A stretch of DNA of 27,231 bases from positions 1 through 27,231 of the forward strand of contig JAADFL010000163.1 in the NCBI GenBank assembly GCA_013152945.1. Direction: 5' to 3'. This document shows, in pieces, positions 3,607-17,084 of the stretch; position 1 is the stretch's first letter; the number at the start of each line of letters is the position of its first letter. The notes under the pieces were generated by a model. That model was not told the DNA's origin. It saw only the letters and a list, made by a program, of their open reading frames with translations, and searched no databases. The DNA is from Deltaproteobacteria bacterium (GTDB lineage: Bacteria > Myxococcota_A > JAADFL01). The position numbers were made by a program, and so were the translations under genes.

Positions 3607-6264
3607 ATGAGAGGTATGCTTGGTTCAATTGCAATGCAATTGTTTCTCTTATTTTTGGGCTTTATGGCTGCGGGCCTTGGTTGCAGTGATTCGACGTCAG
3701 CAAATCATAACAATGGAGATTCAGATACTGATATAGACACGGATGTGGACCTGGATCTGGATTTGGATACCGACACTGACACCGACACTGACACGGACAC
3801 CGACACAGATACGGACACCGACACAGATACGGACACGGACACTGATATGGACACCGACACTGACACTGACACCGACACTGACACCGACACTGATACGGAC
3901 ACGGACACTGATACGGACATTGACACAGATACGGACATTGACACAGATACGGACATTGACACAGATACGGACACGGACACCGACACCGACACCGACACAG
4001 ATACGGACACCGACACAGATACGGACACCGACACCGACACTGATACGGACACTGACACCGATACAGACACAGACACTGACACTGACACTGATACAGACAC
4101 CGACACTGACACTGATACAGACACGAACAAGGAGAAAAATCCTGGTGAAGCATGCCGTTGTGATTCGGATTGCCTGGCGCCTGCACTTGGCTCGATTCCT
4201 GTTTGCCTCTATGGAATATGCATGACCTATTCGTACAAGAAGTGTTCCAACCCTGGTTCAACCGGTGAATGCCCGGAGCATATGAGGTGTTGGGGGCTGC
4301 AAGGCACAAGTGATTACTTCTGTTGGCCTGATTGCGACTATTACAAGTGTGACGGTGCATGCGACTATGATGGATCGTGTGTCATGACAGAGCAGAATTG
4401 GTGTGATCCATCGTGTGGTCACTACTGCCAAGGCGGCTCTGATTCTGACACGGACACCGACACGGATACGGATACAGACACGGATACGGATACAGACACG
4501 GATACGGATACAGACACGGATACGGATACGGATACAGGCACAGGCCCTGGTGAAATTCCGGTTGATATCAGGGCTGATACCAACAGGGACGGAATAGTGG
4601 ACCTTGACGATCCGGCGGATGATTTGAACGAAGATTCCTGGGACAATGAACATGGCGCTGTTTTCCTGGCCAACATCGACGACGATGAGGAATCGTGCCC
4701 GGCCAAGGGGCCGGACGATGAGCTGGCTGCGTGCAATGATGCTGCAGACCAGGTAGTGAACGGGCCGGATGATCTGCTCGATATGGCAATGCTCAAGACC
4801 AGGCCATGGCCGGAAGCGCCCAAGGGCACGTACGGAACTGTCACGATCGACTCCAAGGCAGGTCCGTTTGTAAGGCTCTTCATGAAGAACCAAGACAAGT
4901 ACGATGTCTTCGATCCTGACAATGACCGGCTTAACACTGATGATATAAAAAACGGTGCGACCTTTTACATGGAGGGCAAGGACATAGTAAGAAACAAGGA
5001 TGTGTGGGATGGGTTTGCCACAGTGACATACTCGATTTATCCGCAGGGATTGGGCGGTGCGGTCCGTGATAAGGTTATGTTGAGAATTTCGCCAGTGATT
5101 TTACAGCATCACTTGCACGAGCCGTATCTTGTTTTTGCTTCACCCATACCCGGATATTCCGGGGCAAGCGATTTCATTAACGATCTCGAATCAGCAGTGC
5201 AGGATTCTTCGGTTCAGGCTCAGATCCGGACTTTCGACGTGGATGATCAATGGGCCCAGGATTATCTCGAGCCTGCATACATGTCCATGCCTGCCCGGTC
5301 CGGAGCACATATCATCAGGGTATTTCTTAGGTCGGCTAATGTAACCAATCCCTGGAGTAGTTCATATCCATTGAGGCCTGCAGGCAGGGTGGTGTTCACA
5401 GAACTTCGCGGACCTGACCAGGCAGGAATACAACAGTATGACCGGTACCACGACCAGGACATGGACAGCCTGAATTCGTTCGGCAACCTGGAGACGATTC
5501 CTCCTTACCGGTTCAACGGCAATTCTTATCCGCTGGGACGGATCTTCAGGGGCTCTGTCCCCAGTATGCATCCGGACCAATCCTTCCAGAGGATGCTGGA
5601 GTCACAGGGCGTACAACCGCCGGTATACATAGATACTTCGTGGCTGGTGGTGGGCCACGTGGATGAGACAATAAGCTTTGTGAAATCGGATAATCCAAGG
5701 GGATGGACCATTGCAGTGAACGATCCGGCCCTGGCCAAATCAATGTTGGAGGATCTTCGAGACCAGGGATACGGACAGGTCAAGATGTTCGAGGGCATGA
5801 GTTGGATCAACCAGTGGGGCAATGAGTACCCGGCGGATATCAGTATAAACGCGGTCTTGAACGATTCGAATGTCATGGGAGCCAGTGCGGAAGCAGTGGT
5901 GGAGATTGATTCCGAGCTCAAGATCTTGAAGCAGGAGACAGGAATTACCGACCAGGAACTGTTGAAGGTTCCGTTTCTGCATTTCAAGACACAGGGAGCT
6001 TCTCTGGCATATCAACCAGGCACTATAAACGGGCTCTCGCTTGGAGAGGATGATTTTCTTGCTCCGGATCCACATGGACCGGTCATTTCGGGCAAGGACG
6101 TGTTCAAGGAACAGTTGGAAACAGAGTTCGGCAAGAACAATATCAAGGTGCACTGGATAGAAGACTGGAACCTGTTGCACAGGAACTACGGCGAAGTACA
6201 TTGTGGCACCAATTCGGTTAGAAAGGTGCCGAAACAAGACAAGTGGTGGGAGGTGGCGGAATGA
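3607..6264 (+). CDS. DT-linker lipoprotein with protein-arginine deiminase (PAD) domain
   Basis: Predicted envelope-anchored enzyme converting protein arginine to citrulline. Start ATG 3607 has GGGAG seven bases upstream. Residues 1-26 form a signal peptide ending in Cys26 (GLGC, a non-canonical lipobox). Residues about 38-173 are an Asp-Thr repeat. Residues 183-274 are a module with 16 Cys. Residues 279-310 are a second DT tract. From about 317 the protein matches the PAD family: an Asp-rich middle region (IRADTNRDGIVDLDDPADD) typical of its calcium-binding domain, then the catalytic domain. PAD4 Asp350, His471, Asp473 and Cys645 correspond to D552 (WAQD), H684 and D686 (GHVDE) and C866 (EVHCGTN), so the active site looks complete. 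The stop overlaps the start of the next lipoprotein gene (ATGA), indicating translational coupling. Calcium dependence and targets are inferred from the family, not shown. Confidence 0.93.
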   Translation: MRGMLGSIAMQLFLLFLGFMAAGLGCSDSTSANHNNGDSDTDIDTDVDLDLDLDTDTDTDTDTDTDTDTDTDTDTDTDTDMDTDTDTDTDTDTDTDTDTDTDTDIDTDTDIDTDTDIDTDTDTDTDTDTDTDTDTDTDTDTDTDTDTDTDTDTDTDTDTDTDTDTDTDTDTDTNKEKNPGEACRCDSDCLAPALGSIPVCLYGICMTYSYKKCSNPGSTGECPEHMRCWGLQGTSDYFCWPDCDYYKCDGACDYDGSCVMTEQNWCDPSCGHYCQGGSDSDTDTDTDTDTDTDTDTDTDTDTDTDTDTDTGTGPGEIPVDIRADTNRDGIVDLDDPADDLNEDSWDNEHGAVFLANIDDDEESCPAKGPDDELAACNDAADQVVNGPDDLLDMAMLKTRPWPEAPKGTYGTVTIDSKAGPFVRLFMKNQDKYDVFDPDNDRLNTDDIKNGATFYMEGKDIVRNKDVWDGFATVTYSIYPQGLGGAVRDKVMLRISPVILQHHLHEPYLVFASPIPGYSGASDFINDLESAVQDSSVQAQIRTFDVDDQWAQDYLEPAYMSMPARSGAHIIRVFLRSANVTNPWSSSYPLRPAGRVVFTELRGPDQAGIQQYDRYHDQDMDSLNSFGNLETIPPYRFNGNSYPLGRIFRGSVPSMHPDQSFQRMLESQGVQPPVYIDTSWLVVGHVDETISFVKSDNPRGWTIAVNDPALAKSMLEDLRDQGYGQVKMFEGMSWINQWGNEYPADISINAVLNDSNVMGASAEAVVEIDSELKILKQETGITDQELLKVPFLHFKTQGASLAYQPGTINGLSLGEDDFLAPDPHGPVISGKDVFKEQLETEFGKNNIKVHWIEDWNLLHRNYGEVHCGTNSVRKVPKQDKWWEVAE
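3718..4125 (+). repeat. Coding DT minisatellite, first tract of PAD lipoprotein
   Basis: About 68 six-base units of the form GAYACN encode alternating Asp-Thr, with a few Ile, Met, Val or Leu substitutions at the Thr position. The third codon base varies, so the protein pattern is kept more strictly than the DNA. It separates the lipid anchor from the Cys-rich module. Confidence 0.9.
4441..4536 (+). repeat. Coding DT minisatellite, second tract of PAD lipoprotein
   Basis: About 16 units encode DSDTDT and onward to DTDTG between the Cys-rich module and the PAD region. The units alternate GACACG and GATACGGATACA more regularly than in the first tract, which suggests more recent local duplication. 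Confidence 0.85.
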
Positions 6265-7250
6265 AGACGAATAGAAAATACAATGACAGTAAATTTCTTT
6301 ACCTCGTGCCGGTTTTCCCGATCGTTTTTTCAATCTTCTTTGGTTGTTCCAATAAACCCGGTGTAACAAATGCCCCGGCTTCAATGTCTCTGACAAGGCA
6401 GGACAAGGCGACTCTGGCAGCGCTCGACAAGACAATAGCCAAGGCAAAGGCCGGGGCCATGTCCGGATATTTCGGGAAGGTGGATCTTCTCATGAACAGG
6501 GTGCCGTACCTTAAAAAGACTAAAAGAGGGCGTTTTGCAGTAGTTACGCCGTTGCTCGAGTCAATCGGCTCGAGTGCCGCCTTGCCCATGATCGAGAAGT
6601 TGAGGCACAAGGAAAAGCCGGGAGGCTTCTCCGAATCATCGTGGATTGCCTGGAGGATTGGATTATTGGAAGCATTGTCGGACTTCAAGGACAAGAGAGC
6701 GCTCATCGTGGCAAAGGATATTCTTTTGGATCCAAATACCGGGGAGCCCGTGGCTCGTGCGGCGGCAAGTGCAATAGGGACTCTTGGAGGTGAGCAGGAG
6801 AGCGAAATGTTGATATCGATTGCTTCCAAAAAGGATGAAAAAGGTCTTGCAGTGCTTACCGCCCTGGGCCGGGCAAGAGAACCAAACGTCATCGAGTTCC
6901 TTGGCCGGGTAATGAGCACGGACACCGACAGGGCAAGGATAAAGGCGGCAGTAAGGTCCATGCGTACATTGGCCAACAAATGGGCCTGGCGGAGCGGGAG
7001 CCTGGGAACGAGAGACGAACAAGAGGAGTTCCAACAGAAGGCGACACGAAAACTGCTTATTGGATTCAAGGCCCACTTTCAGGATCCGTTGCTGAACGAA
7101 GAGTTTGTAAAGGCATTGGAGGTTGTGGATTGGCCGGGTGCAACCGGTATATTGGATGCTATGATGGAGCATGCAAGTTCGCAAGGGCTTCAAAAGGCAT
7201 TGAGTGAATTAAAGACAAGGCTTGAGAACAATCCGTTGAACAGGAAATGA
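6261..7250 (+). CDS. HEAT-repeat-like lipoprotein coupled to the PAD gene
   Basis: Predicted 329-aa envelope protein. Start is ATG 6261, overlapping the TGA of the PAD gene (6262-6264), with GGGAGG upstream inside that gene. An upstream GTG in the same frame is less likely. Residues 1-29 form a signal peptide ending FFGC, a plausible lipid cysteine. The mature part is a series of amphipathic alpha helices, for example ALPMIEKLRHKE, ARAAASAIGTLGG, AVLTALGRAREPNVIEFLG and ARIKAAVRSMRTLA, resembling HEAT / PBS-lyase-type repeats. These usually make a curved protein-binding solenoid. No catalytic motif is visible. The four-base overlap suggests it is made in proportion to the deiminase and may be a partner or chaperone for it; that role is inference. 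Confidence 0.8.
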   Translation: MKTNRKYNDSKFLYLVPVFPIVFSIFFGCSNKPGVTNAPASMSLTRQDKATLAALDKTIAKAKAGAMSGYFGKVDLLMNRVPYLKKTKRGRFAVVTPLLESIGSSAALPMIEKLRHKEKPGGFSESSWIAWRIGLLEALSDFKDKRALIVAKDILLDPNTGEPVARAAASAIGTLGGEQESEMLISIASKKDEKGLAVLTALGRAREPNVIEFLGRVMSTDTDRARIKAAVRSMRTLANKWAWRSGSLGTRDEQEEFQQKATRKLLIGFKAHFQDPLLNEEFVKALEVVDWPGATGILDAMMEHASSQGLQKALSELKTRLENNPLNRK

Positions 7251-7319
7251 AAGTGCCCTGTCCATGGATACTTAAAGTTTTTATGAGCGGGTCGATTACG
7301 CGGGTAAGCAGGTTGTCCT

Positions 7320-7460
7320 GTTTGCCGGTCGTTTATTATGTTTTGAAAAGAAAATGTTTTCATACTATGTTTCCAAAACCCGGTTGTTCGGTGTCTTGAG
7401 TTGCCGGATGCTGAAATTCGTGGTGAAAAAGGGTATCAGGAGTTTGCCGGTTTATTATGG
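7320..7460. repeat. Imperfect direct repeat in the intergenic region before the second DT lipoprotein
   Basis: GTTTGCCGGTCGTTTATTATG at 7320-7340 recurs at 7442-7460 as GTTTGCCGGTTTATTATGG (two bases deleted), about 100 bp apart. The second copy ends about 22 bp before the start codon at 7483. A short inverted repeat (TGAAAA / TTTTCA) lies between them. No gene fits in 7251-7482. Confidence 0.5.
7415..7437 (+). promoter_or_regulatory. Second copy of the shared upstream motif
   Basis: AATTCG directly followed by TGGTGAAAAAGGGTATC, 45 bp before ATG 7483. It matches the motif before the PAD lipoprotein gene at 3561-3587. Possible common regulator site; function unknown. Confidence 0.35.
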
Positions 7461-7482: not shown

Positions 7483-9648
7483 ATGAAATACTTGAGGGTG
7501 ACAAGCTTGTTACTTGGTCTCTTTTTGACGGCGTGGTTTGTTGCGGCATGTTCCAGTGGCAGCACTTCGCCAAATGGTGACACCGATGTAGACACCGACA
7601 CCGACACTGATACAGACACAGACACCGATATCGACACGGACACAGACACGGACACGGATGCAGATACAGACACGGACACGGATGCAGATACGGACACGGA
7701 CACGGATGCAGATACGGATACGGACACGGATGCAGATACGGACACGGATACAGACATTGACACCGACACCGACACCGACGTTGACACCGACACCGACACT
7801 GACGTTGACACCGACACCGACACTGACGTTGACACCGACACCGACACCGACGTTGACACCGACACCGACACTGATGTTGACACCGACACCGACACTGATG
7901 TTGACACCGACACCGACACTGACGTTGACACCGACACCGACACAGACACCGATGTAGACACCGACACCGACACAGACACAGACACAGACACTGACACGAG
8001 CCAGGACTTCAGGGTCCTAAGCCTGACTCCAGGGGATGGTTCCCTGGATGTTCCCACTACTACCGACGTAGAGGTGGCGTTCAGCAAACCCGTGGATTTC
8101 AACAAGGATTTTTATGTGCTGCTCGCTCCGGCTCCCCCGAACGGCTATCCAACCCCCAATGTCAGCCAGGATTTAAAGACCTTTTCATGGAAAAACATGA
8201 CCCTGGCCGCTGATACACAATACGTGTTGATGGTGATACTGGCATACAGCCAGGATGGAGATACCCTGGCCCAGGCCGGGGAAGCCATATTCACAACCGG
8301 TTCAGCTTTGCCTGACACCAGCATTTCAGGCACTGTCCTGTATTTTCCGAATCCTGTTCCTGATTATTTCCCGACAGACTTGTCATCCGCTTCTGTCATC
8401 GCTGAAAGTGAACTCGGCATGCCTACGGCTGACAATACCTTTGGCTTGGGACCTGTATCATCTGAAGGAGCTTACTCCATAGACTACATCAAGCCGGGCC
8501 AGTACTTTTTATTCAGCGCCATGTCTGTGGCCGGGAACACATATTTTGGCATTCATGATGGGGATGGTGACGGAATTCCCTTCGAATCAACCGACAAGGT
8601 CGGTATTTCGAACGGCGAACACTTGAAGGAAAAGAACATCAAGTTGTTTCTCGATAGTTTCAGCCTGGTTGAAAACTCGCCGTTACAAGGACAGACCTCG
8701 GTACCAAAGGACATTACAGCGACTGTCAAGTTCAGTGCACGCATCGATGCGGCAGCGAGCAAGTTCTACCTGACCCCGGAGCCCGTGTCGCATTCGGAAC
8801 TAAAAAGCGCCCAGGACGGCTTCGGCGCCGAGATGGACCTGAAGTTGGCCGATAATACGAGCTATGCAGGCCTTATCGAGGACATTGTCGGTCAGGACGG
8901 CGGTTCCCTGGCCAATCCTACATTGGTTAGGTTCACCACCGGCAATGCGCTGCCCACCGGTGTTGTAGATGGAAAGGTGGAACTTGGCGGTGATGTCCCG
9001 TCTGTTATAATCGACGGTGAGATAATGGTTTACCTGGCCGAGGCCAGGCCGGCCTCGCCGAACGCGTCAATGGGTGAACTCGGCGTTGCAGGTTTCCAGG
9101 TACTGCCCAGTACAGGTGGTGATTTCAAGCTCGAAAACGTGCCTGCAGGCACGTACACACTGTTTGCCTTTGCCCGTTTAAAGTCGGGACAGGCTGCATC
9201 AGCGGCATTGGCGTACCTGGATGTGAATAATGACCAGGCATATACGGATGATGACCTGTTCGCCCTGGCCAAGGGAGAGCACAAGACAGTCAATATCACA
9301 CTGAATCCATGGGTGGGTACAGGTACTATTTCAGGCAAAGTGAGCCTGGATTCTGGTTTGTCGGGGCTGCTCGATTCTCCAATCGGAATAACCGTCATGA
9401 TTTCACTGGACCCGCTATCCATAGGCAAGACACCCAAGATAGTAGGGACCACTGTCATCAACAACGAGGACGGCTCTTTCACGGTAACCGGCCTTTTCCC
9501 TGGTGATTATTATGTGTCCGGCATCTATTTCTTCCAGGGAGGCGGTTCGGCTGTCGGTGCATATCCCTCATTGTTGAGTCAACAGAGTGTGACACTTGGT
9601 GAAGGCGGTAGCCTGAAGGACATCAACTTTACCATGTACAAATTATAG
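7483..9648 (+). CDS. DT-linker lipoprotein with Ig-like and carboxypeptidase-regulatory-like beta domains
   Basis: Predicted surface lipoprotein of 721 aa. Start ATG 7483 has GGAGG five bases upstream. The signal peptide ends in a canonical lipobox, VAAC (Cys23). Residues 33-172 are a 140-residue Asp-Thr linker. Residues about 176-290 resemble a bacterial Ig-like domain ([25 protein letters not shown], Big_5-type). A carboxypeptidase-regulatory-like beta sandwich follows (ISGTVLYFP to [10 protein letters not shown]). A second Ig-like domain starts near [18 protein letters not shown]. Two more regulatory-like sandwiches come next ([13 protein letters not shown] and [13 protein letters not shown]). 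No catalytic residues were recognised, so a structural or adhesive role is most likely. It stands alone between the PAD pair and a convergent tRNA gene, and shares an upstream motif with the PAD gene. Confidence 0.85.
7579..7998 (+). repeat. Coding DT minisatellite with 24-base higher-order period
   Basis: The 140-residue Asp-Thr tract has a second period of eight residues: DTDTDTDA four to five times, then DTDTDTDV about eight times. At DNA level this is a 24-base unit such as GTTGACACCGACACCGAC plus ACTGAC, repeated nearly exactly between about 7780 and 7950. Ala blocks use GATGCAGATACG-type units; Val blocks use GACGTTGACACC-type units. Confidence 0.9.
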
Positions 9649-11155: not shown

Positions 11156-11413
11156 GCGGTTTTTATAATGTTCATATTTTTATGGTTTTGTAAAAAGCCG
11201 GGAGAGGTCTTGTCGAATAATTCAGGCCTTTTATTCAAAATCGCCAAGCTCCGGGCTTTATGCTCCGTTTTTACGAAGCTGTCCTATGTCGGCCAAGTAT
11301 ATGTTATCGAAAGCATCCGGGGCAAGGAGCTTGTCGGGTTACATCATGTTGGTAACGCATTCGATTGACAGGCCCGGACCATAAGGGCTAGGTTTCATTA
11401 CATGGAGAAGAGC

Positions 11414-12166
11414 ATGCGCCTGTCTTTTATCATTTTGTGGTCGTTGTGCCCGTTCTTCCTTTTGTCCTGGACCCAGGAGCGGGTTAACGGCGATTCAGGA
11501 GCCGGTCTGCATTGGTGTACCTCGAGAGTAAACATTTGGCTGAATGAAGACGGGAGTTCCAAGATATCAGGCGGAAAGGATCTGGATGCATTACGCACAG
11601 CAATGGATGTATGGAACTCTGTGGAATGCAACCACCCAGAGCTGGTAGAGGTTGGGCTTACACAGGACCGCGACAAGCACGGCAAAGGTACCCCGGCCAG
11701 GAACTTCATAGTCTGGCGGACCAGGGACGAATGGGAACAGGCTGGATATTCCTTTTCAGCGCTTGCCATGACAACACTGTGGTACGATCCTGGTTCCGGC
11801 AGGGTGTACAAGGGCACAATGGAGTTCAATGATACACAGAATTGGAGCGTTGGTACGCCTGTAACAGGGACCGATGTCTGGAACACGGCGTCACACGAGT
11901 TCGGCCACTTCATCGGCATGGATCACAGCAAGGATCCCAACGCGACAATGTATCCGTACACAGGCGGACATGACATGGTCAAGCGTGACCTGAATAATGA
12001 TGATATCAACGGAATTTGTTCCATTTACAGCAAACCATACAAGGATTGCTCGGACAACGGGTGTGGTTGCACAAATGGCTCCGGCTCAATAAGCATGGGA
12101 ATGGTGGCGCTGTTGCTTTTAATCCTCCTTGTTTTTGTATTGAGATCGAAGGCAGGTGAATATTGA
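11414..12166 (+). CDS. Matrixin-type zinc metalloprotease with MYXO-CTERM-like tail
   Basis: Secreted M10-like protease, about 250 aa. I prefer ATG 11414 because GGAG lies six bases upstream and the leader then reads MRLSFIILWSLCPFFLLSW; ATG 11402 in the same frame is possible. The zinc motif HEFGHFIGMDH (HExxHxxGxxH) is at about residues 161-171, followed by ATMYPY, a plausible Met-turn. A late segment DLNNDDINGICSIY is typical of matrixins. The C-terminus is tripartite: CSDNGCGC, then a membrane helix (MGMVALLLLILLVFVL), then RSK. This matches the layout of MYXO-CTERM sorting signals, which suggests cleavage and surface anchoring at the Cys. The stop overlaps the start of the methyltransferase gene by four bases. 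Substrate unknown. Confidence 0.88.
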   Translation: MRLSFIILWSLCPFFLLSWTQERVNGDSGAGLHWCTSRVNIWLNEDGSSKISGGKDLDALRTAMDVWNSVECNHPELVEVGLTQDRDKHGKGTPARNFIVWRTRDEWEQAGYSFSALAMTTLWYDPGSGRVYKGTMEFNDTQNWSVGTPVTGTDVWNTASHEFGHFIGMDHSKDPNATMYPYTGGHDMVKRDLNNDDINGICSIYSKPYKDCSDNGCGCTNGSGSISMGMVALLLLILLVFVLRSKAGEY

Positions 12167-14532: not shown

Positions 14533-14583
14533 AAAAGCCCCAAAGGGGCGAAATAAAATAGCCTGGGGCAACGCCCCAGGAAT
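14533..14583 (-). repeat. Two-hairpin REP-like repeat, copy 2 (inverted)
   Basis: On the minus strand: ATTCC, hairpin A CCTGGGGC-GTT-GCCCCAGG (14562-14580), AT-rich spacer, hairpin B GCCCC-TTT-GGGGC (14537-14549). Stems are longer and cleaner than in copy 1. Differences between copies often fall on both sides of a stem, which keeps the pairing. Confidence 0.7.
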
Positions 14584-14857: not shown

Positions 14858-17084
14858 TCAGTCACAATCCCCGCTGTATTTCCAGGTATTGAAATCATAG
14901 GTGCATTCTCTGCCGTGTTTCCTAATAGTCATGCTGTTGTCGTGCCACTCGATCACGGGATTATTGTCCCCATCAGTAACGTTTAATCTTTTTAAAGGAT
15001 AGTTTTTGCTGGTTGTCCCGTTTATTTTTGGAAGCAGGCCCATCCCGGTGTTGTAATCGGCACAAATTTGATCACCGAGTCCTGTCTTGAGGCAAGTGGA
15101 ATTCAGATCTCTTGAGGCTGACTTGAATTCATTAAAGCTCTTGTAGTCGCAATTCGAACAAATAGTAGCCACCTCCATTCCCGCCGACTGGTCCCTTACC
15201 CTTACGGCCAGGGCGGTTGTGCCGGCAAGGAAGTATCCCCACGACGTGTCTTTCATGGTATAGTCGGCGCAAATATTATTGTTTTCACTGCAAACAGCGG
15301 CGGTTATCTTTGTCAAATTCTCCTGCCCGATATCAAAGGTATTTGAGCCGAGAAGAAACTGGGCATAAAGATGGCTGCCTTTGGATGGGACAAAGATTGC
15401 GTTTCTATATGGAAGCGTGCTTGTCCCGAAATTGGTTCCGGCATACTTGTCGCCATAGTTTATTTTCTCTTCATTGTTGATAAAAACCATGAATGGAGCC
15501 TTTAGGCTCTTCAAAACAAGTGAGTTCCCGCCTGTAATTGATCCTCCAATAGCCCAATCCGCGTTAACCGTGGCCGAACCGCTGGAAAGGATTGGACCGG
15601 AACCAGACCTGTAATGAGATTGGTTCATGTATTCGATATAGGACTTTGGTTCGTCGCTTCGATCCACGATATCTATGATAACTGCGGGAGGTCTGTAATT
15701 GGTTATATAAAGCGGATTCAAGGCCACCCAGTTTCGGAAATTCTCGTCTTTTTTCCAGTAGTACTCCCAGGGGAAGAATCTGAACTCTCCCTGTCTGGTG
15801 TCATGCGAATAGTTTCTACCATAGGGAGCGGAGCAAACAGTATTGTAACCATCTTCAACAACACAATTGGTGCCGGTGTCAAGGAAGAGGAGGTCAAGAG
15901 CCATCTTTGCCTTTCGGCGCAGTTCCTCGTTTTTTGTGGTCTCGTGCAACATCAAGAAGGCATTGACGAAAGCCCATGTGTAGGCCTGACTATCCATTTC
16001 ATTCGCGAGTCTTGAATTTGCGCCCTGCTTGGCCAAGCCATCCAACTCGTAATTCAGAAAATCCTTGGTTAATTGGTAACGGTTGTAAGTGTTGCCCGCC
16101 TTGTACCCTTGAAACTGGCACCATTTATTGTTCTGTTGGCAGTTGTATATTCCATCCCGGTCAAAAGCCTCACTGTACAAAAAATCGCCGACCATCATCT
16201 GTAACGCCTGGTTGGGGTTCCTGTTTGCTTCTCTTCCGAGACAACCAGGCATTTCTTTCATGATTTTGTCTTTGGTTTGTTGGGACAGTTTGTCTGCATA
16301 TTTGATTAATATGTACATCAATTGCGGGGGCCTGTACGAAGTGCTCGTATAACACCAGTTTCCATCATTTTCATCCCTGAACATGAACTCGTTGATATCT
16401 GTATTTGCCAGGTCTTCATTGCCGTTGACCAGCCATGCCCAAAGACAGCGACTGTCATTTCCGGCTTTCACGTTCGTTTCGCCATTGCAATACTCGTACA
16501 GGTACCTTTGACGATTGCTTTCAAATTTCTTTAGCTCGTTTCCTGTGTCGGTATCCGTGTCAGTATCGGTGTCGGTATCCGTGTCAGTATCGGTGTCGGT
16601 ATCCATGTCAGTATCGGTGTCGGTATCCATGTCAGTATCGGTGTCGGTATCCATGTCAGTATCGGTGTCGGTATCCGTGTCGGTATCCGTGTCGGTATCC
16701 GTGTCGGTATCCGTGTCGGTATCCGTGTCGGTATCCGTGTCGGTATCCGTGTCGGTCGGTATCGGTGTCGGTATCCGTGTCGGTATCGGTGTCGGTATCC
16801 GTGTCTGTGTCAGTATCAGTATCTCCATTCCTGACACACTTGAATTCAAAATTACACAGAAAACCATCCGGGCACTGTGAAGTTTTCTCGCACTCCACGC
16901 ATCTGCCTGCCATCGGTCCATTCTGTGCGCAGATCCTTTTGTCCGGGCACTCTGTGTCCAGCTTGCAATTTTGTTCATTGCTGTTTCCTTGGCAGTTACC
17001 AAGAAAAAGAAAAAACAGAAAAAGAATCACTGGATTAACAATAGTAGATATAAATTTCTTTTCATGCGGCCAAAAACAATTCAT
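14858..17084 (-). CDS. Cys-rich DT-linker lipoprotein with frame break in the linker
   Basis: Start ATG 17084 has AGGAGGT six bases upstream. Frame one gives a signal peptide ending LGNC (Cys31), a module with eight Cys (residues 40-83, including CKLDTECP and CVECEKTSQCPDG), and a DT linker from residue 88. It then reads into RHGYRHGY and stops at 16656. The rest of the linker and a domain of about 550 residues ending YSGDCD (stop 14858-14860) lie in another frame. The switch maps to 16751-16763, where one repeat unit is two bases short or four bases long. The C-terminal part is helix-rich at first (QAYTWAFVNAFLMLHETTKN, RRKAKMALDLLFLD) and beta-rich later. It is reminiscent of alpha/alpha-toroid plus beta-sandwich enzymes such as polysaccharide lyases, but I cannot assign a family. 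It may be a pseudogene, a phase-off state or an assembly error. Confidence 0.8.
16545..16823 (-). repeat. Coding DT minisatellite with frame-breaking irregular unit
   Basis: About 46 six-base units, on the plus strand alternating GTGTCG and GTATCC/GTATCG. At 16751-16763 the order GTCGGTCGGTATC interrupts the period and shifts the frame. All three minus-strand frames stay open through the tract, so the shift is not revealed by an immediate stop. Confidence 0.9.

Follow-up and report, generated by a model that had tools for sequence, protein, structure and literature searches.

Peptidylarginine deiminases (PADs) belong to more than one enzyme family. The enzyme pPAD of Porphyromonas gingivalis is an exported bacterial peptidylarginine deiminase, like the one we describe here, but it comes from a different enzyme family and is calcium-independent. 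The vertebrate enzymes PAD1-4 combine the PAD_M and PAD_C folds with D/H/D/C catalytic residues and with Asn/Asp-rich calcium residues in PAD_M, and they also possess PAD_N and a calcium-switch Asp. Fungal and actinobacterial PADs match PF03068 and make up the non-animal clade of PMC8826395; they have no PAD_N, and they show an HH strand before PAD_C and a DxNxDG-type loop. The cyanobacterial PADI of Cyanothece sp. 8801 is likewise a bacterial PF03068 enzyme, placed in the animal-like clade with PAD_N and a calcium switch, and it is active, calcium-dependent and able to citrullinate proteins (PMC8826395). The same work gives the calcium-switch residue D389 as found only in the animal/late cyanobacterial clade and sets pPAD apart from the PF03068 PADs. 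PADs were reported there from <1% of bacterial species and from at most 11% of any bacterial group listed, namely the cyanobacteria, in a sampling that was older than ours and different from it.

Two other kinds of system bear comparison with this locus. Some secreted enzymes have a co-encoded dedicated partner, as with lipase and its lipase-specific foldase or staphopain and staphostatin. In the staphylococcal SD-repeat proteins SdrC and ClfA, a long acidic stalk of dipeptide repeats separates the head from the anchor.

We analyzed a stretch of 27,231 nucleotides of myxococcotal DNA (the window), whose source genome (4.84 Mb, 94% complete) has a single PAD. The open reading frame at 3607-6264 (+) encodes an 885-aa PAD-family protein and has an AGGGAG ribosome site 7 bases 5' of its ATG. 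The most informative feature of the locus is the gene that overlaps its 3' end, which encodes an exported HEAT-repeat protein (Table 1). As in the lipase/foldase and staphopain/staphostatin pairs, the cognate partner is co-encoded downstream, although the folds are unrelated. We lean, at a little better than an even chance, towards the explanation that the locus is a two-gene cassette of a calcium-dependent envelope peptidylarginine deiminase and its cognate HEAT partner.

Table 1. Features of the PAD-HEAT locus, with positions counted from the first nucleotide of the window.
Feature	Position	Strand	Basis or remark
Signal peptide (residues 1-25) and lipobox Cys26 of PAD lipoprotein	3607..3684	+	Prosite-type lipobox pattern
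First Asp-Thr tract (residues 40-173)	3724..4125	+	Scrambled synonymous codons; tract type found genome-wide
16-Cys module (residues 174-280)	4126..4446	+	Pfam search, genome search for copies
Second Asp-Thr tract (residues 281-310)	4447..4536	+	
PAD_M-like calcium-binding region (residues 320-485)	4564..5061	+	Invariant calcium-type positions in 49 homologues; PAD4 superposition
PAD_C catalytic domain (residues 486-882; D552, H684, D686, C866)	5062..6252	+	PF03068 match, model vs PAD4
GGGAGG ribosome site inside PAD gene	6248-6253	+	7 bases 5' of HEAT ATG
ATGA overlap, PAD stop / HEAT start	6261-6264	+	Recurs in 31/49 loci
Predicted exported HEAT-repeat partner, alpha-solenoid, 329 aa, lipobox FFG-Cys29	6261..7250	+	PF13646, family profile, model
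Terminator-like hairpin after two-gene operon	7303..7326	+	10-pair stem, consensus match only; regional site count at chance level

In a plain sequence search the PAD-family protein matched human PAD1-4 with E values of 1e-39 to 1e-43 (8e-43 for PAD4). PF03068 matched residues 486-882 with E=1.2e-91 and 308 bits against a cut-off of 25, and the same protein scored 311 bits in a whole-genome PF03068 search. No match was obtained for the window PAD with PF08527, which gave weak matches in relatives, or with a PAD_N profile. Residues 307-885 were then modelled with AlphaFold2 from 49 window and locus sequences (mean pLDDT 95.3, pTM 0.93), and when the model was compared with solved structures all of the top matches were human PADs. 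The model superposed on PAD4 residues 111-663 with a Z of 49 and 1.8 A over 514 residues at 28% identity, and its folded part aligned from about residue 110-111 of PAD4 onward. The best matches were ligand-bound (Ca2+-bound) PAD4 structures, while calcium-free PAD2 gave Z 39-41. As modelled, the protein has PAD_M and PAD_C and is without PAD_N.

The predicted catalytic residues D552, H684, D686 and C866 align with the PAD4 residues that we take to be numbered D350, H471, D473 and C645, and all four are invariant in an alignment of homologues (49/49). The calcium-type residues N356, D358, D359, D360, D378 and D392 are invariant in the same 49 homologues, as are the loop residues of D324-x-x-R327-x-G329, and the PAD_M-like region contains the loop DTNRDGIVD and the motif NIDDDE...NDAAD. 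A first-pass annotation of this DNA had read the protein as a PAD with all four catalytic positions and an Asp-rich calcium-binding region, and had proposed a PF03068 search and a structural comparison with PAD4 as checks. Both residue sets are upheld by the alignment, the profile matched, and the structural match ran across the full PAD_M+PAD_C length.

By sequence alignment the PAD4 calcium-switch residue D388 (PADI2 D389) falls on V595 of the window PAD, beside a gapped stretch, and calcium control may therefore differ from that of the human enzymes. The valine fits the description in PMC8826395, and on these features the window PAD appears to be of the fungal/actinobacterial-like type; both PAD_N and the calcium-switch Asp, by which the animal/cyanobacterial PADI clade Ai is defined, are absent. 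QHHLH occurs in the window PAD before PAD_C and xHHL in the consensus, a candidate counterpart of the triple-His position of PMC8826395. Streptomyces PADs are 35% identical to the window protein and two of them show Sec-type signals. In contrast to the window PAD, the actinobacterial PADs that we examined lack a lipobox, a long linker and a HEAT gene, and the vertebrate enzymes differ from it in that it is exported with a lipobox and has a HEAT partner gene.

From its sequence, the protein is probably a calcium-dependent envelope peptidylarginine deiminase; calcium-dependent hydrolysis of peptidyl-arginine to citrulline would be expected because of what is known of PAD enzymology. One alternative is that it acts outside the cell as an arginine deiminase on small peptides or free arginine, releasing ammonia outside the cytoplasm. 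This would be in keeping with the backbone-holding residues R372 and R374 of PAD4, which have no one-to-one alignment in the window PAD; column counts show a retained Arg at 575 or 576. We consider it improbable, however: the PAD fold takes in PAD_M and PAD_C from end to end, the neighborhood shows no conserved gene for arginine transport or catabolism, and the cyanobacterial PAD citrullinates proteins (PMC8826395).

The signal peptide with a candidate lipid Cys, the two Asp-Thr (DT) tracts and the 16-Cys module named in the first-pass annotation were all recovered. The lipobox is MRGMLGSIAMQLFLLFLGFMAAGLG-C (...FMAAGLG-C26) and fits the pattern, and exactly 16 Cys lie at residues 183-274, between the DT tracts. 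The Cys module matched nothing in Pfam, and the genome has no clear paralogue of it.

To place these features we used 282 genomes sampled evenly from the Myxococcota, which were searched with PF03068 and HEAT-family profiles. PF03068 was found in 71 of them, and 84 PAD ORFs were taken from stretches of no more than 20 kb around the matches (one locus being a duplicate of another). By a simple rule, 74 of the 84 have a recognizable lipobox, and several of the others were cut by contig ends. The lipobox is therefore the norm in this lineage and the window protein is no oddity. A PAD displayed on the cell surface had been called an unusual setting; with about a quarter of the sampled genomes carrying PADs, most of them apparent lipoproteins, a lipobox-bearing PAD is not exceptional in this phylum. 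One PAD type there travels with a partner gene as a unit. We found no paper on lipoprotein PADs of Myxococcota in the literature searched, which is largely without subscription journals. The PAD may sit on the outer membrane, facing either outward or the periplasm; the first-pass annotation had suggested extracellular or prey proteins as possible substrates. In M. xanthus, Ala at position +7 is a sorting signal to the extracellular matrix (PMC3222651). That residue is present in the window PAD, but in only 6 of 73 family members, and we gave it no weight.

Between anchor and head, the window PAD resembles SdrC and ClfA in its long acidic dipeptide stalk. It differs from them in having DT rather than SD repeats, a lipid anchor rather than LPXTG, and an enzyme as its head, and its NCBIfam similarity to SD-repeat proteins stems from the repeat only. 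The codons of the DT tracts are synonymously scrambled (GAC 53/GAT 29; ACG 26, ACT 16, ACC 16, ACA 15), so the tract is maintained as a peptide and is no simple DNA microsatellite, though its exact length needs caution in a contig-level assembly.

It had been suggested that this linker concentrates calcium near the enzyme. A direct role of the stalk as the calcium reservoir of the PAD would suit the composition of the linker, in which 100 of 290 residues are acidic. However, DT tracts also occur in unrelated proteins across the genome, for example in the product of 7483-9648 of the window: the DT pattern gave 1428 overlapping matches genome-wide against 0 for the reversed pattern, and at least 40 tract ends in the genome were not followed by G. 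Furthermore, PAD linkers in this lineage range from almost none to the 290 aa of the window protein, which is the longest, and may be DT-, Gly/Thr-, Asn-, Asn/Pro- or Asp/Gly-rich, some with Cys modules. Among the 50 full-type PADs whose linker was measured, only 8 have an acidic linker, and many linkers are Gly-rich or 11-20 aa long. A general role of the linker in concentrating calcium is thus unlikely and finds no support, and a reservoir function of the DT stalk itself is very improbable. The most likely explanation is that the DT stalk is a generic envelope spacer of this organism, because tracts of the same type occur elsewhere in its genome and the relatives mostly have short or non-acidic linkers. 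A search of the literature for Asp-Thr stalks returned no relevant paper.

In three relatives the PAD linker includes a somatomedin-B domain or two (PF01033, best E 1.7e-17); this module is familiar from extracellular proteins of animals.

At the junction of the two genes, the TGA that ends the PAD (6262-6264) shares bases with the ATG of the HEAT gene (6261-6263), and the two genes are probably translationally coupled. The HEAT protein has a signal peptide. It scored 32 bits with PF13646 (cut-off 27.7) and 256 bits with the family profile. Its model is an all-helical solenoid (pLDDT 94.6, pTM 0.90) that resembles the engineered alphaRep and other HEAT/Armadillo binders (Z 15.5 and below). The predicted fold is a common arrangement, showing binding potential and no specific function, and being generic it does not tell a chaperone from an inhibitor or a subunit.

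A HEAT gene adjoins every one of the 49 testable full-type Myxococcota PADs, which represent eight families (rows of at least 400 aa, with the duplicate left out; a further three PADs run into the end of their contig). It lies upstream of the PAD gene in one locus and downstream in the others, with the ATGA overlap in 31. Conversely, the HEAT family was detected at E<=1e-15 in 45 of the 282 genomes, and 44 of these also have a PAD, the exception being a weak match of 3e-16. Copy numbers agree as well, with PAD:HEAT ratios of 2:2 in six genomes and 4:4 in another, and no other neighbor is conserved at the breadth of the HEAT gene in PAD neighborhoods. The linkage is obligate and the copy numbers are matched.

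When the HEAT partners of paralogous cassettes within one genome were swapped, agreement between distance matrices never improved, which shows inheritance as a unit and not contact. A mirror-tree correlation of 0.83 was set aside as evidence, since shared descent and physical linkage both inflate it. No PAD was found in a phage collection. The strict linkage suggests that this citrullinating enzyme works with a dedicated partner. The literature searched, which largely omits subscription journals, yielded no paper on a PAD with a HEAT protein, and any novelty of the pairing is relative to that literature.

On the other hand, 28 PADs have no HEAT gene. In a tree of 83 rows, all from Myxococcota, they form one side of a single branch with support 93, including one very long branch (L120) whose place among the 28 is unsure. 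A HEAT gene was never found beside these animal-like-clade PADs. Most of them are apparent lipoproteins too, and most have animal-like motifs: WxQDE(L/I/F)E, DSIR, often DRGLD (DSIRxRGLD), and SFGNLEVSPPVTVDGVEYPFGRI. In locus L080 the PAD at 5721-7343 (+) has Asp at the calcium-switch position D389 when aligned with human PADI2. As this Asp is said to be exclusive to another clade, the HEAT-less Myxococcota PADs deserve a place in the tree of PMC8826395. We also found no HEAT gene within about 4 kb of three actinobacterial PADs (Streptomyces/Embleya plasmid loci); PAD folding in general therefore does not depend on the partner. Taken together, the animal-like clade and the three actinobacterial PADs argue that the need for a partner is specific to the full-type PAD in these cells.

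The most likely role of the HEAT protein is that of an obligate cognate alpha-solenoid partner of the PAD, either a chaperone or an inhibitor. In the mechanism that we propose, the PAD would be exported by the Sec pathway and, judging by its lipobox, tethered in the cell envelope by a lipid anchor, the long flexible DT/Cys-rich linker carrying its catalytic head. In envelope proteins or external ones it would then turn arginine side chains into citrulline by the Cys/His/Asp/Asp mechanism of PADs, and calcium filling the PAD_M sites would switch it on. Given this calcium requirement, we propose that the enzyme is off in the cytoplasm and on outside. The periplasm and the exterior probably hold enough calcium to switch it on, and a PAD switched on in transit would be a threat to the cell's own envelope proteins. 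The HEAT solenoid would serve only its cognate PAD and would bind it during or after export, binding being suggested by its co-encoded, exported and strictly cognate nature. As a chaperone or inhibitor it could protect the envelope proteins of the producing cell from deimination, and such strict pairing would be explained most simply by a co-translated partner with the task of folding, shielding or escorting the PAD. The narrower assignment, that the HEAT protein acts on a bacterial PAD as its dedicated inhibitor or as its export chaperone, we make tentatively and at somewhat less than even probability.

The main rival casts the HEAT protein as a targeting subunit, permanently in place, that recruits particular Arg-containing substrates to the envelope PAD. 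HEAT/Armadillo alpha-solenoids bind proteins and peptides, designed Armadillo repeats bind Arg-rich peptides, and both window proteins have a lipobox and could stay together on one membrane. In most relatives, however, a lipoprotein PAD is paired with a HEAT protein that has an ordinary cleavable-type signal peptide with AxA-type sites (assigned by eye), so that the two need not stay together and the final compartment of the HEAT protein may differ between the window and these relatives. No sequence feature separates a subunit from a chaperone or inhibitor, and we regard permanent targeting as unlikely though worth keeping in view. Another possibility is that the HEAT protein is itself a substrate and that citrullination changes its binding properties. 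This could be reconciled with the obligate linkage and with several conserved arginines in the HEAT consensus, of which R61 is nearly invariant, but HEAT repeats often have conserved Arg residues and, to our knowledge, enzymes rarely carry one co-encoded substrate. We therefore give this idea little credence and retain the cognate chaperone or inhibitor as the preferred role.

If the HEAT protein controls the PAD, it would be a natural PAD regulator, of interest for work on citrullination in inflammation. If the inhibitor or chaperone reading is true, the cassette shows how bacteria handle a calcium-triggered citrullinating enzyme in their own envelope. The PAD-HEAT unit provides a testable handle on the roles of bacterial PADs and on why the PAD family needs so much calcium, perhaps because its enzymes are meant to act beyond the cytoplasm.

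Several other features were observed in the window. The next gene after the cassette, 7483-9648 (+), encodes a DT-stalk lipoprotein with the lipobox VAAC and weak fn3_3/Ig-like matches. A further DT-tract lipoprotein gene, 14858-17084 (-), has an apparent frameshift within the tract: the signal peptide and the Cys-rich part lie in the ORF at 16656-17084 (-), and after an irregular GACCGAC step in the repeat the DT frame goes on in the ORF at 14858-17002. This could be an assembly error, a mutation or slippage-based switching. A matrixin-type metalloprotease with a MYXO-CTERM sorting domain, in keeping with the assignment of this DNA to the Myxococcota, is encoded at 11402-12166 (+), and the Rfam RNA Acido-Lenti-1 was matched at 14536-14580 (-) with a score above the gathering threshold.
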